In this document: positions 34,298 through 41,255 of the stretch, in pieces | Numbering within the stretch: position 1 is the stretch's first letter | Layout of the letters: the number at the start of each line of letters is the position of its first letter | Assembly (NCBI GenBank): GCA_022825855.1 | Contig: JAJDWB010000019.1 | Coordinates: forward strand, 124,001 to 188,000 | DNA length: 64,000 bases | DNA from: Dehalococcoidia bacterium | GTDB lineage: Bacteria; Chloroflexota; Dehalococcoidia; Bin125 | Direction of reading: 5' to 3' | The notes under the pieces: generated by a model | Told to the model about the DNA's origin: nothing | Database searches by the model: none | What the model saw: only the letters and a program-made list of their open reading frames with translations | Made by a program: the position numbers and the translations under genes

Positions 34298-35533
34298 CTA
34301 GCGCGCCCGCGCGAACCCGGCCGGGATCATCCCGATCACCAAACCGGCGACCCGCCGATCCTCGCTCTCCCGCATCCGACCCACGATCTGGCGCAGCACC
34401 GTCCCCAGCAGGGTCTGGTTGAACAGCCAGTCGTTGAGGTCCGCGTCGGTCGGATAGTTCGCGCCCGGCTGCGCCGTCGCCGCCTCGTGGTAGAACGCAC
34501 GCAGGTCGTCCGAAGCGAACTTGAGCCGCACCGGCATCGGGTGATTCCAGTCAATCTCCCCGTCCGACGGCTCGGCGCCCGTGGCGAAGTCGGCCAGCAG
34601 CCGAGCCAGATCCTCGACCTGGCCCAGCGACGCCCCCGAGATCCCCACTGTCGACCGCCCGCGCCGCTTGACCGACTCCGCGTGCCAGGGCGCGAGCTGG
34701 CGGATTTCCTCAACCAGTTGATCGCGCAGCGCCTCGGTCTCGTCGGCCGGCTCCGGCGGAGCCAGCGCCACCGCGCAGGCCCACGGATCGTCGCCGCTCG
34801 TCGGCGCGTCGTTCGGGTAATCCACCAGCGCCGTCTCGGTCGCGCTCTCAAGCAGTCGCAGCGACGAGAGCAGCACATCGCGCTGGAAATCGGGCTGATC
34901 GGGCGACCCAAGCGGCCGCCCCAGCGGGAACGGCACCCAGAGCGATCGCGGCGGCTTCATCCCTTCCGCGTGCTCGCGAATCAGCGAGACGCCCGTCGTC
35001 GCCACGCGGCCCTCGCTGCCGCGTTCGATGTAATGGCTGAGCGCACACACGGAGCGCGTGCAGAACGGTCAAACCGGTGTCAGAAACGCCGCGTTCACCC
35101 CGTCCTCGGCCAGCAGCCGCCCGATCTCCTCGCCCGTCTTCTCCAGGCGCGTCGGATCCGGCTGCGCGCCCATGAACGAGTAGTGATAGCGGCTCACACC
35201 CGCGATCACGCCCTGCTCCGCCAGCTCGCGCAGACGCTCCAGCGGGAACACCGTGTTGATGTCCTGCTGGAATCCCGAGCGGTCGAAGTTCACCGACAGG
35301 TGCGACATCCGCAGATCCGCAAAGTCGATCTCGCCCGGGATCAACCGATACTCGACCGACCCCGGATTGAACGGGCGATCGTCCTCGGCGTGCATCCCCG
35401 CTGTCGTCACGATCGCGACCTTGGCCTCCGCCAGCGGACGCGGCGCAATCCACGGCTGCGGCTCAATCTCCGGCAACGGCAGACTGAGCAGGTTCTTGGC
35501 CATGTCGGGGTGCATATCGGATGTGCGAACCAT
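34298..35533 (-). CDS. Predicted selenoprotein: glycine/sarcosine/betaine/D-proline reductase component B (PrdB/GrdB-like), in-frame TGA at codon 155
   Basis: One continuous reading frame of 411 codons interrupted only by TGA at 35069-35071. The N-terminal part reads KVAIVTTAGMHAEDDRPFN, RLIPGEIDF, DINTVFPLERLRELAEQGVI and SFMGAQPDP, as in PrdB/GrdB proteins. Codons around the TGA read FLTPV-TGA-PFCTRSV, placing TGA where the family has the redox selenocysteine (or Cys) in a UxxC motif; Cys158 would be its partner. After the TGA the family text resumes: REHAEGMKPPRSLWVPFPLGRPLG. A SECIS-like stem-loop starts 7 bases after the TGA. The ATG at 35533 has GGAG upstream. The other reading is a nonsense mutation, but both halves look undamaged. 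Substrate unknown; no other reductase subunit is adjacent. Confidence 0.82.
35043..35061 (-). promoter_or_regulatory. SECIS-like stem-loop downstream of the in-frame TGA
   Basis: On the minus strand the bases right after the TGA fold as GCACGC / GUGUGC (6 bp, one G-U) with the 7-base loop GCUCCGU. Counting from the U of UGA, the loop begins at base 17, and its first base is G. Both points fit the general bacterial SECIS model (short hairpin 16-37 bases away, G in the first two loop positions). It lies inside the coding region, as bacterial SECIS elements do. This is a hand fold only. Confidence 0.5.
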
Positions 35534-35605
35534 GGGGCAGCTCCGGGATCTATAGAGGTCTCGAGGCACGATATCTCATCGCAGGGGCTCGCATCCGTTC
35601 TTGCT

Positions 35606-37790: not shown

Positions 37791-38001
37791 GATCCAACTC
37801 CTCGGTACTGATTCCTGCGCAGGCTACCGCCGATCTGAGACCTGCTTGTCAAGCCAAGTGTGCCCCCGGAGCGATTCACCCGCAGTTGACAATCCGCTCG
37901 CGCCAAACATCACAAAGCGACATAGCGTCGGAAATGAAGGCACTGGACAGACGGCGCTCGACCGTCCGCCGCCCTTCAGCCAAACGCGAGGAGCGTGCCC
38001 C

Positions 38002-38253
38002 ATGATTGCCCCGATCGACCCCAACCCGTTCGCTCCCAGCACGGCCGCCGAGCGGCAGGCGCGGGAATCGCACATGCGCGAGATGGCTCGCCGCCGCTGG
38101 GAGGCTCAGCAGGACCTGCGGCGCCGCCGCACGCGCCGGCTCGCGCTCGACCGCGTCCAGCAGATCCGCGAACTCCGCCCCGGCCGAGCCGTCGCCAGCT
38201 CCCTCTCCCCCGTCTACAACATGTTCAACGACCGCTTCCTCCGCCGCCGCTAA
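38002..38253 (+). CDS. Small arginine-rich protein of unknown function
   Basis: 83 residues, strongly basic, with a central helix RRRWEAQQDLRRRRTRRLAL and the tail SLSPVYNMFNDRFLRRR. The ATG at 38002 follows GAGGAG. I do not recognise the family. A TTGACA at 37886-37891 may be part of its promoter. A strong hairpin (38280-38306) follows the stop. The last ~50 codons, stop and hairpin are duplicated at 38954-39159. Confidence 0.65.
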   Translation: MIAPIDPNPFAPSTAAERQARESHMREMARRRWEAQQDLRRRRTRRLALDRVQQIRELRPGRAVASSLSPVYNMFNDRFLRRR

Positions 38254-38306
38254 CCCCGCCGCCAGCAGGAACCCACCCAAAGGGGCGACCCACCCGGTCG
38301 CCCCTT
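38098..38306. repeat. ~208 bp direct repeat, copy 1 (3' end of the arginine-rich gene plus terminator)
   Basis: Nearly identical to 38954-39159; I count only a few base changes and a 3-base indel. The copy covers the last ~52 codons of the small basic gene, its stop codon and the following hairpin. The two copies flank a 647-base segment with the DUF4160 and DUF2442 genes. Confidence 0.9.
38280..38306. terminator. Hairpin terminator, copy 1
   Basis: AAGGGGCGACC / GGTCGCCCCTT, a perfect 11-bp stem with a 5-base loop, 26 bases after the arginine-rich gene's stop. The flanking A and T runs are short, so it could work in both directions. Confidence 0.75.
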
Positions 38307-38385
38307 GTGCATTACAGCGTCAAACTTCCTGTTGGTTCTTCGCGCGGAACACATGCAGAGCTGGAACCCCGCGCCTCTCCGAAAC

Positions 38386-38628
38386 TCAGCCCTGGAGCGG
38401 CTTCCTTGTCTCGGCAGACCGCTGCCCGGCACGGAGTCCTGCCAGACTGATGTCCTCGTCAAGGTCAGGCCAATGAATGCCCTCGCCTGTTCCAATCAGG
38501 CGCCAGTTGTTCCGTTCCTGCTCAGTGGCCCGTTCCAACCTCGGAAACCACGCCAACGGCGCCGAAATGCGCTCGCCATCGGTCGAGCTGACCCTCAATT
38601 CCGTCCCCGAGAATGACACGCCCTGCAC
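38386..38628 (-). CDS. DUF2442 domain protein
   Basis: 80-residue protein starting at GTG 38628, one base after the DUF4160 stop. It has the DUF2442 pattern: VSFSGTELRVSSTDGERISAPLAWFPRL, then WRLIGTGEGIHWPDLDEDISLAGL. DUF2442 and DUF4160 genes often travel together as a pair that has been proposed to be toxin-antitoxin-like. The exact role is unknown. It is coupled to the upstream gene. Confidence 0.82.
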   Translation of the reverse strand: MQGVSFSGTELRVSSTDGERISAPLAWFPRLERATEQERNNWRLIGTGEGIHWPDLDEDISLAGLRAGQRSAETRKPLQG

Positions 38629-38629
38629 C

Positions 38630-38881
38630 TTAGGGTCCTTCTTGCGACGCGCCGAAATGCGCAACCCACTTCTGTTCCGCCACAGCCTTGTGCCTGTTGA
38701 CGAGATTCTCGATGTCACTGAGCTCATGCCTCTTGAAGCCCCCGTTCTTGACCAACCTTACCGGAGTGAGCCAGTACTTGGCCACACGTTCGTCGCGTTC
38801 GACATGCACGTGCATCGGTTCGGCGCCTTCGTTCGAGTAGAAGAATATGCGGTATGGACCTTCTCTGGCTACGGTTGGCAT
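38630..38881 (-). CDS. DUF4160 domain protein
   Basis: 83 residues with the DUF4160 signature: MPTVAREGPYRIFFYSNEG, PMHVHVERDERVAKYWL, PVRLVKNGGFKRHELSDIENLV. It is the first gene of the DUF4160-DUF2442 pair. The open frame continues upstream into the repeat, but similarity begins at the ATG at 38881. Base composition of this pair looks less GC-rich than the surrounding genes, suggesting acquisition. Confidence 0.85.
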   Translation of the reverse strand: MPTVAREGPYRIFFYSNEGAEPMHVHVERDERVAKYWLTPVRLVKNGGFKRHELSDIENLVNRHKAVAEQKWVAHFGASQEGP

Positions 38882-38953
38882 ATCCGCAAAGGGTACAAAC
38901 CGGACCTGATACGTGGGACCAGCGCGGCAGGCCTCGCAGGTCAGGGAAGAGTG

Positions 38954-39109
38954 TGGGAGGTTCAGCAGGACCTGCGGCGCCGCCGCACGCGCCGGCTCGC
39001 CCTCGACCGCGTCCAGCAGATCCGCCAACTCCGCCCCGGCCGAGCCGTCGCCAGCTCCCTCTCCCCCGTCTACAACATGTTCAACGACCGCTTCCTCCGC
39101 CGCCGCTAA
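38954..39109 (+). pseudogene. Truncated duplicate of the arginine-rich gene
   Basis: Encodes the same ~50-residue C-terminus (QQDLRRRRTRRLALDRVQQ onward) as the gene at 38002-38253, with one visible change (RQLRPG for RELRPG). It lacks the first ~32 residues and has no proper start, so it is a 3' fragment left by duplication or insertion. Confidence 0.8.
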
Positions 39110-39159
39110 CCCCGGCAGCAGGAACCCACCCAAAGGGGCGACCCACCCGGTCGCCCCTT
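38954..39159. repeat. ~208 bp direct repeat, copy 2
   Basis: Second copy of the repeat described at 38098-38306, in the same orientation. It begins at a shared TGGGAGG and ends with the terminator hairpin. Confidence 0.9.
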
Positions 39160-39160
39160 T
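39133..39160. terminator. Hairpin terminator, copy 2
   Basis: Same 11-bp stem and 5-base loop as copy 1, followed by TTT. It lies directly after the stop of the minus-strand lipoprotein gene and could terminate that transcript. Confidence 0.7.
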
Positions 39161-39167
39161 GTCGTGT

Positions 39168-41255
39168 CTACTCGCGGCCACTGACGGCGAACCACTTGCC
39201 ATTGGGTGACCATATCGCTTTGGGAATCACGCAGCCAGGCGGCCCAGGCCCCGTACAATCCGTTGAGGTATGTAGCGCCGCAACTGCGGCTCCAATCGAG
39301 TTCACAATCAAATGTTGAAACACGAGTGCGCCGAGGCCGTCCACGCGATCGAGGGCTACTGACGCGATATGGTACATCGTGCCATCAGGACTCCAGCCCT
39401 GGGACCTATGCCAGTCTGGATACCAGGTCGCCTCTCCGGGGTCTACAAAGTGGCCAATCTTCGACTCGGCGTCTATGACCAGAATGGCTCGAATGATATA
39501 ACTGTATACAATCACCGCGCCAACGTAGTGGTCTTGCCAGGACGACAACATGTAGAAGTGGCGCAGGTCGCGTTCTGTGTCTCTTGCCTCCCATAGTCGG
39601 GACGACTCGGGATCGTCTTCCAGGGCAGCAACAGCCAGCAATGCACGTTGATCGGCTTCATAGATCCACGCGGAGGCAGTCGCGTAGTCAACCACTAGTG
39701 CGTGCTCCTCTGCAGTCGACCACGTAGTCCCTATCTCTTCATTGAGTACGTCACCGTCTGTAGCCGACCGAACACGTTCGCCACCGTGATCCCAGAGGCG
39801 CCACGGTGAAGACTCCGTAATCTCGATGAACTCGCCGTCGAGCGTGTACTTCACCCAAACGTATTCACCTTCGCCGTCGCTTGTATCGCAAACGGCGTCG
39901 GTCGCAATGGTGTTGTCGTCACTTAGGTGCCACCAATCCCACCCGGCGTCAACGAGGCGGGACGGTGCCTTGCATACTTTGTTTGCGAGCACGGCTTCCC
40001 AGTTGTCGTCAAACCTTGCGAACCCGCCGTCTGTACGAAAAACGATCGACGTCCAGTCTTCGCGATCGTCCTCAAACCAGGCAACGAAGAACTTGACTGC
40101 ACGACTGTTCGCAGCCCACTCGAAGTTTGCATGCACGCTTGCATAAACCCACCAGAGAATCGGATCGAAGCCGCTGAGTCTAAGCTGTCGAGTGAGCGAT
40201 ATAGGCGTCGATCCATCCAGCGGGAGGATGGTTACGTCCCAGTCTTGAATACAGTTGTACCAAAGGGGGCACAGGTTGGCGATAGCTAGGAACCGGCCAT
40301 CCGGTGAGAATTCCGCGTATCCCGGCGGCCGACGAATAAACTCCAACTCGTCCGTCTCCGGACGCCACTGCCAGATGTACTCGTCGTTGTGCGCCAGCAA
40401 CCAACCCCACGGCAACCACATCCACTGGTCCGACCTCGGCAGAATCCGACCCTGCCCCACCCGAAAATCATCCCCCGGAAACACCACCGTCTCGTCCCCA
40501 ACCAATATCGGCAGATCCTCCAGCGTCACATCCTCAGCCAGCAATGTCACCTCGTCCTTCGGCGCGCCCAGGATCTCCGACCACTCGTCGTCGACCGCCA
40601 GCAGCCGCACCTCGGCCCCGTCCGCCGACTGACCCATCACCCCATACTCATCACCCCGCCACTCCGCCAGGATCGCCGGCGCCGCCTGTCGCAGCACCAA
40701 CCACTCGTCAATCCCGCTCAGGTCCACCGCAGTCGACCGGATCCAACCCGCAAGCCCGTCCCCATACGAGATCCGATACCACCCTCCCCCGCGATGCAAC
40801 ACCACCACCGGCTCCCCAGCCGCCACCCGATCAACCATCGGCCACGCCAACCCCGGCCGCACCCGCACATCCGCATCCGCCAACACCACCCCCGGCAAAT
40901 CCGTCAGATCTTCCGCCGGTTCGTCGTCCTCCTCAACCTCCGCCACCGCCGATCCCCCATCGCCCTCTGTCGCGCGAGACTCCGACTCCCGAGTCTCCTC
41001 CTGTGTAGGCGCAACCGCTGCAGCCGACTCTTCACTCTCCTCCACACCCGACGCCTGCTCAACAGCCTCCACCGCTGGCTCCAAAACCTCACCCCGCACC
41101 GCCGCCCGCTCTGCAACCTCTTGCTGCTCCACCGCCTCCACCTGCGCCCGCACCTGAGGCTCCGACACAGCCGCAGGCTCCTCGCCGCAGGCGGCCGAAA
41201 GCCCCGCTGCGAAGGCGGCCAGTAGCCACATGCGGGACAGAAATAGCTTCCACAT
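39168..41255 (-). CDS. SH3-domain lipoprotein with TolB/WD40-like C-terminal part, paralogue A
   Basis: 695-residue predicted lipoprotein. A signal peptide ends at lipobox LSAAC (Cys23). An acidic, glutamate/valine-rich linker follows to about residue 110, then a bacterial SH3 domain (VRVRPGLAWPMVDR, GGGWYRISYGDGLAGWIRS). The remaining ~450 residues contain blade-like phrases (FSPDGRFLAIANL, WSPDGTMYHIAS, WSPNGKWFAVSG) as in beta-propellers. It is probably exposed on the outer face of the membrane, perhaps sensing the cell wall. The start at 41255 is chosen because the signal peptide begins there. Its tandem paralogue lies 95 bases upstream. Confidence 0.78.
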   Translation of the reverse strand: MWKLFLSRMWLLAAFAAGLSAACGEEPAAVSEPQVRAQVEAVEQQEVAERAAVRGEVLEPAVEAVEQASGVEESEESAAAVAPTQEETRESESRATEGDGGSAVAEVEEDDEPAEDLTDLPGVVLADADVRVRPGLAWPMVDRVAAGEPVVVLHRGGGWYRISYGDGLAGWIRSTAVDLSGIDEWLVLRQAAPAILAEWRGDEYGVMGQSADGAEVRLLAVDDEWSEILGAPKDEVTLLAEDVTLEDLPILVGDETVVFPGDDFRVGQGRILPRSDQWMWLPWGWLLAHNDEYIWQWRPETDELEFIRRPPGYAEFSPDGRFLAIANLCPLWYNCIQDWDVTILPLDGSTPISLTRQLRLSGFDPILWWVYASVHANFEWAANSRAVKFFVAWFEDDREDWTSIVFRTDGGFARFDDNWEAVLANKVCKAPSRLVDAGWDWWHLSDDNTIATDAVCDTSDGEGEYVWVKYTLDGEFIEITESSPWRLWDHGGERVRSATDGDVLNEEIGTTWSTAEEHALVVDYATASAWIYEADQRALLAVAALEDDPESSRLWEARDTERDLRHFYMLSSWQDHYVGAVIVYSYIIRAILVIDAESKIGHFVDPGEATWYPDWHRSQGWSPDGTMYHIASVALDRVDGLGALVFQHLIVNSIGAAVAALHTSTDCTGPGPPGCVIPKAIWSPNGKWFAVSGRE

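Follow-up and report, generated by a model that had tools for sequence, protein, structure and literature searches.

A predicted long-form PrdB-like selenoprotein in a Dehalococcoidia genome that carries a haem-copper oxidase

One reading frame across an in-frame TGA

The window, a 64,000-nucleotide stretch of a Dehalococcoidia bacterium contig, carries on its minus strand a gene that starts with ATG at 35533 and stops with TAG at 34298-34300. Its 412 codons, stop included, contain a sole internal stop, the TGA at 35071-35069, which is codon 155 and lies in the motif LTPV-U-PFC. Without read-through, standard ORF calling returns two pieces (35069-35569 and 34298-35050), exactly the split that the initial annotation had predicted when it described two same-phase frames as one gene interrupted by TGA. 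Joined at these coordinates, the two frames give a protein of 411 amino acids with U155. The ATG start, rather than the GTG at 35569, is backed by orthologues; the wider frame from that GTG (P0002; 423 amino acids, 12 residues more) served as the query in some searches. Genes of this kind are likely to be annotated as two fragments or as proline reductase. The features of the locus are as follows:

34298..35533, minus: predicted complete selenoprotein gene, 411 amino acids, with an ATG start, GGAG upstream and a TAG stop; genus orthologues share start and frame
35069..35071, minus: in-frame TGA, predicted Sec, U155 of LTPV-U-PF-C (UxxC); U in Sec homologues, TGC or TGT in Cys homologues
35060..35062, minus: codon for Cys158, the resolving-type Cys of UxxC, invariant in alignment A3
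35041..35057, minus: predicted SECIS hairpin, nucleotides 15-31 numbered from the T of TGA
34811..35476, minus: PrdB-like core (residues 20-241 or so), modelled as a Rossmann-like alpha/beta fold
34301..34810, minus: helical C-terminal extension, about 170 residues long, that includes the conserved segments RRGRT, DLRAFYxEA and WxFxxTxxG

The neighbouring genes encode an Ldh_2 dehydrogenase, a DUF3159 membrane protein, an alpha/beta hydrolase and succinyl-CoA synthetase (sucC/sucD). This gene order is kept at the genus loci inspected and broadly also in a neighbouring genus (L107). The steady neighbours at these loci lie on both strands, and neither an obvious operon nor a conserved operon partner that would reveal a substrate was found there. 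A link to proline through the adjacent Ldh_2 gene was dropped because an opposite-strand gene lies between the two. Elsewhere in the window, a DUF2442-DUF4160 pair on the minus strand (38386-38727 and 38630-39202, within the region 37876-39202) is flanked by 168-nucleotide direct repeats that are 96% identical (38098-38265 and 38954-39121). The region resembles an inserted cassette with a duplicated flank, and at L053 just one short ORF occupies the place.

Evidence for selenocysteine at codon 155

The genome that carries the gene (2.8 Mb, 96% complete) contains the machinery for selenocysteine that the initial annotation had proposed to look for. Specifically, a tRNA-Sec scores 70 bits, above the gathering score, and has a TCA anticodon according to ARAGORN, and SelB, SelA and SelD score 344, 513 and 352 bits, respectively. 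The SelD gene (G000:C13:217544-218485, L019) itself encodes a selenoprotein with an in-frame TGA in CGG-U-GSK, such that Sec synthesis in this genome depends on Sec.

Codon 155 is TGA in all 14 genus sequences (the window's own and 13 orthologues, from separate assemblies), is never TAA or TAG, and is the only internal stop. Among these sequences, differences at the three codon positions amount to 0.089/0.051/0.376 before the TGA, 0.094/0.042/0.371 directly after it and 0.100/0.049/0.409 in the extension. By this comparison of sequences, purifying selection is equal on either side of the TGA, and the conserved frame lies well outside what chance would yield. Homologues are present in 43 of the 100 relatives, own genome counted, and all class homologues that were fetched and aligned across the position have U there with C at +3. 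The same pattern holds for homologues as distant as about 28% identity, almost all of which come from the class. The TGA thus sits in a UxxC motif as in PrdB-type proteins, in agreement with what had been noted from the window alone. Alignment with Cys homologues was another of the proposed checks: ten homologues from elsewhere in the phylum have TGC or TGT at the U155 position, mostly within ILTAGCPLCHR, and their genes are unsplit. An in-frame UGA is therefore found where homologues carry Cys or Sec, in a genome with tRNA-Sec, SelA, SelB and SelD.

These data bear on the idea that the TGA is a pseudogene lesion or a sequencing error in a Cys codon. TGC differs from TGA by a single base and the assembly is a MAG, but the same TGA recurs in each of the 14 genus sequences and also in paralogues and remote relatives, purifying selection is undiminished downstream of it, and the Sec machinery is present. 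We assign this explanation a vanishingly small probability and, given the conservation of the TGA codon, consider it refuted for practical purposes.

The region directly downstream of the TGA also carries a predicted SECIS hairpin, with a stem formed by nucleotides 15-20 and 26-31 and an apical loop (21-25) with an invariant G22. Across 54 sequences, 89.8% of the stem cells are paired, vs 64.0% after shuffling, and the covariation score is 0.671, vs 0.190 after shuffling and at most 0.169 in slid registers. Three of the 57 distinct downstream sequences (L095, L102 and L104) were excluded from the pair count because their stem looks shifted, and were kept in the mutual-information table. The two mid-stem pairs 18-28 (100% paired, three pair types) and 19-27 (88% paired, four types) rank first in mutual information among all the column pairs that were compared, and RNAalifold finds the same six-pair stem unaided. 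Within the stem, the wobble positions 18 and 27 face the first codon positions 28 and 19, so that protein constraint alone would not easily account for the covariation. Of the six stem pairs, a mean of 5.3 is kept in 63 Sec sequences vs 2.8 in Cys homologues, which by this count have lost the downstream hairpin.

The window's own hairpin is a poorer example of its family. Its pair 19-27 is a U-U mismatch, a shifted hairpin (11-18/22-29) is more stable in this sequence (-11.6 vs about -6 kcal/mol), and the single-sequence fold is no better than that of shuffles (z -0.72). The U-U variant of the stem also occurs in several species of the genus with the frame kept. A search of Rfam yielded no match to a SECIS model. 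Folding and covariation, which had also been suggested as a check, thus reveal strong compensatory change across the family and a signal that is weak in the window's own sequence alone, whose stem has one mismatch.

The compensatory changes after the TGA likewise count against a reading of the locus as two separate proteins, or of UGA as recoded to another amino acid such as Trp. Automatic ORF calling does split the gene, and a GTG lies 18 bases past the TGA. Nevertheless, the genes of the Cys homologues run through without a break and encode Cys here, the conserved UxxC reaches across the TGA, and the adjacent 536-amino-acid ORF terminates in TGA, which marks this codon as a normal stop here. 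Such a reading is scarcely more credible than a sequencing error. Rather, homologues, machinery and covariation together identify codon 155 as Sec, as the initial annotation had claimed in calling the product a likely selenoprotein, and the gene almost certainly encodes a full-length Sec-containing enzyme.

A long form of the PrdB-like family

The best NCBIfam model for the protein is TIGR04483 (PrdB), with 111 bits (5e-32) over residues 36-246 of P0002, which does not reach the PrdB equivalog cut-off of 300 bits. PF07355 (GRDB) matches with 40 bits against a gathering cut-off of 22, covering only profile positions 214-345 of 347; the N-terminal 210 or so residues of the full GrdB architecture are absent. 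The UxxC redox motif of PrdB is present, identity to clostridial PrdB is 33-37% over the core, and both models recognise every one of the 17 sequences in a diverse alignment.

A phylogenetic tree of the core, with GrdB as its root, groups the 51 rows of long proteins into a single clade (support 100/98). GrdB is a separate branch, and two PrdB proteins from clostridial plasmids branch outside all others, with the motif UGTC vs UPFC. Members of the long clade continue for roughly 150-200 residues past the core, a region that PrdB lacks and in which the segments RRGRT, DLRAFYxEA and WxFxxTxxG are conserved. The extension belongs to no family in Pfam or NCBIfam. In an AlphaFold model, confidence is limited to the core (about residues 20-240), and the extension is rendered as helical with pLDDT mostly 25-58; in the same model, U155 lies at the N-terminus of the helix 156-172. 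Foldseek gave no match in the PDB at E <= 0.001, and a search by sequence found no solved structure of the family.

D-proline and glycine reductases require a pyruvoyl subunit, which derives from PrdA or GrdE (original papers referenced in PMC1088965 and PMC10838667). The model for these proteins, PF09338, has no match in the own genome and none above the cut-off in 12 genomes of the genus, where a single weak match (20.8 bits, G014) was observed. That the search works is evident from eight genomes elsewhere in the class or phylum, whose best matches score 246-463 bits. GrdA likewise has no match in the own genome, in a search that had no positive control. Neither a PrdA-type partner nor, with the same reservation for GrdA, a GrdE/GrdA partner was therefore found. 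The genome does encode the haem-copper oxidase subunit I (COX1, 510 bits), which is consistent with aerobic life. The remark in the initial annotation on an apparently aerobic genome with no other reductase subunits nearby is in this way upheld. Profile searches and the tree establish, at the level of sequence, a genome with no match to PrdA/GrdE or GrdA and a long form that is monophyletic. Those relatives that have a name are MAGs listed as Chloroflexi, Chloroflexota or Dehalococcoidia bacterium, and from isolate names we suspect a sponge-associated origin.

Could the protein nonetheless be PrdB proper, and thus contribute the Sec subunit to a D-proline reductase complex that yields 5-aminovalerate? 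PrdB is its best NCBIfam model (5e-32), and the identity to clostridial PrdB is appreciable at 33-37%. Against this, the score is 111 bits where 300 are required, PrdA/GrdE is not above the cut-off in the genus though found in other Chloroflexota by the same search, and the genome holds a gene for aerobic respiration. Moreover, clostridial PrdB falls outside the clade and has UGTC rather than UPFC, and prdB on a Terrisporobacter plasmid adjoins prdA, as the gene here does not. We regard a true PrdB as very improbable. The initial annotation had placed the protein in a PrdB/GrdB reductase family. The assignment to that fold family stands, and the reductase function is unsupported, in view of the score (111 vs 300 bits), the partners that were not found and the extra C-terminal region.

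A proposed stand-alone oxidoreductase and its relation to known systems

We consider it probable, from the sequence evidence, that the gene product acts on its own as a selenocysteine oxidoreductase and belongs to a long subfamily within the PrdB/GrdB fold family. In the mechanism that we propose, SelB and Sec-tRNA would decode the UGA, aided by the hairpin directly downstream, to insert Sec155. The selenolate of Sec155, located at a helix N-terminus, would attack a small substrate at a group that is oxidised or electrophilic, as the UxxC motif and the fold suggest. Resolution of the intermediate by Cys158 would leave a selenenylsulfide, which a thioredoxin or glutaredoxin of the cell could then reduce again. 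The C-terminal helical region probably replaces the pyruvoyl subunit in substrate binding, or serves dimerisation. The substrate is probably not an amino acid to be reduced as in the known complexes, because there is no pyruvoyl subunit to hold it.

Alternatively, the selenoprotein might serve mainly in non-redox binding or sensing, for example of peroxide, metal or an electrophile, with Sec as the reactive sensor. The presence of several paralogues per genome and of no clear operon fits sensor-like or sequestering roles, and the helical extension might function as a regulatory domain. Yet UxxC is a typical redox motif, uncharacterised UxxC selenoproteins are mostly considered redox enzymes (review PMC13188914), and a profile search found no DNA-binding or signalling family with support. 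A sensor is an unlikely reading, if the least unlikely of the alternatives, and we favor the oxidoreductase.

Genomes of the genus contain up to five PrdB-like matches each, some in tandem, and this multiplication is suggestive of several substrates. Across the genus, ClpS-like and RecQ helicase genes flank a second group of long paralogues, which consists of one to three selenoprotein genes in tandem (L071, L075, L077, L078 and L079; in the own genome at G000:C6:33128-34360, L067). In four genomes, the gene for a fused biotin-dependent acyl-CoA carboxylase is immediately followed by a member of a third group (389 amino acids, L081-L084), a group that the own genome lacks. The carboxylase domains were verified in L082, and the adjacency is a possible lead to acyl-CoA chemistry. 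Finally, a 77-amino-acid glutaredoxin gene (L105:1812-2045, minus) is found 53 bp from the gene for a distant, short PrdB-like selenoprotein. This glutaredoxin is a candidate electron donor of the short homologue, and the adjacency of the two genes fits a thiol/selenol redox role.

Among known systems, D-proline reductase PrdB (TIGR04483) belongs to the fold family of the present protein, has its Sec in UxxC at the corresponding position and is 33-37% identical to it over the core. It is distinguished by a length of about 240 amino acids, by its pyruvoyl partner PrdA and by its occurrence in anaerobic clostridia, whereas the protein here has 411 amino acids, no PrdA, UPFC instead of UGTC, and an aerobic genome. 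The prdB gene on the Peptoclostridium acidaminophilum plasmid (L140, NZ_CP007453.1 260271-260984) has no prdA among its listed neighbours in a gene table that is incomplete, and may be another stand-alone case.

Marine surveys have also yielded Sec UxxC PrdB-like proteins from sea water. Their published accounts describe Sec PrdB with UxxC as the third most abundant selenoprotein family of the Sargasso Sea, with 42 genes (PMC1088965), and 'PrdB' as abundant in the GOS survey, with 235 Sec and 110 Cys forms (PMC2398784). Judged from these descriptions rather than from sequences, the marine proteins are very probably the wider group that contains the present gene. The passages concerned list them under proline reductase, and there neither is a long form set apart nor a partner subunit tested for (PMC1088965, PMC2398784). 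Sec 'PrdB' as a kind is thus already known, its abundance in the sea having been on record since 2005. What is new is the variant seen here, a long subfamily that lacks the partner. Our literature search found no paper that separates the long form or questions its PrdB function. The name 'proline reductase' implies anaerobic amino-acid fermentation, which makes little sense in oxic water. The present case separates the pieces, in that a conserved and real Sec protein occurs in an oxygen-respiring lineage without the defining subunit of proline reductase, and a clade with an additional helical region is now defined. A broader proposal, for which we see the chances as evenly balanced, is that the long PrdB-like proteins represent a new type of aerobic selenoenzyme that works alone and whose substrate is unrelated to proline or glycine, and that this partnerless group makes up much of the 'proline reductase' of marine surveys.

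GrdB, GrdF and GrdH (PF07355, TIGR01918) are related through the C-terminal half of GrdB, which includes the Sec region, but differ by the N-terminal 210 or so residues that are absent here, by GrdE/GrdA, which were not found here, and by their separate branch in the tree. Another stand-alone protein with a similar core (30% identity) is the 'Glycine/sarcosine/betaine reductase selenoprotein B family protein' of aerobic Proteobacteria (Roseomonas, WP_207415257.1). No partner subunit lies beside its gene, and it differs in having Cys for Sec and a short form of about 300 amino acids. Much more distant is farB, a fluoroacetate reductase candidate of Synergistota, which has a GrdE-like partner and occurs in anaerobes (PMC10838667). 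Judging by this example, GrdB-like Sec proteins may be co-opted for the reduction of other electrophilic substrates (PMC10838667). The long-standing PrdB label thereby gives way to a question that experiments can address, namely the identity of the electrophile on which these enzymes act.
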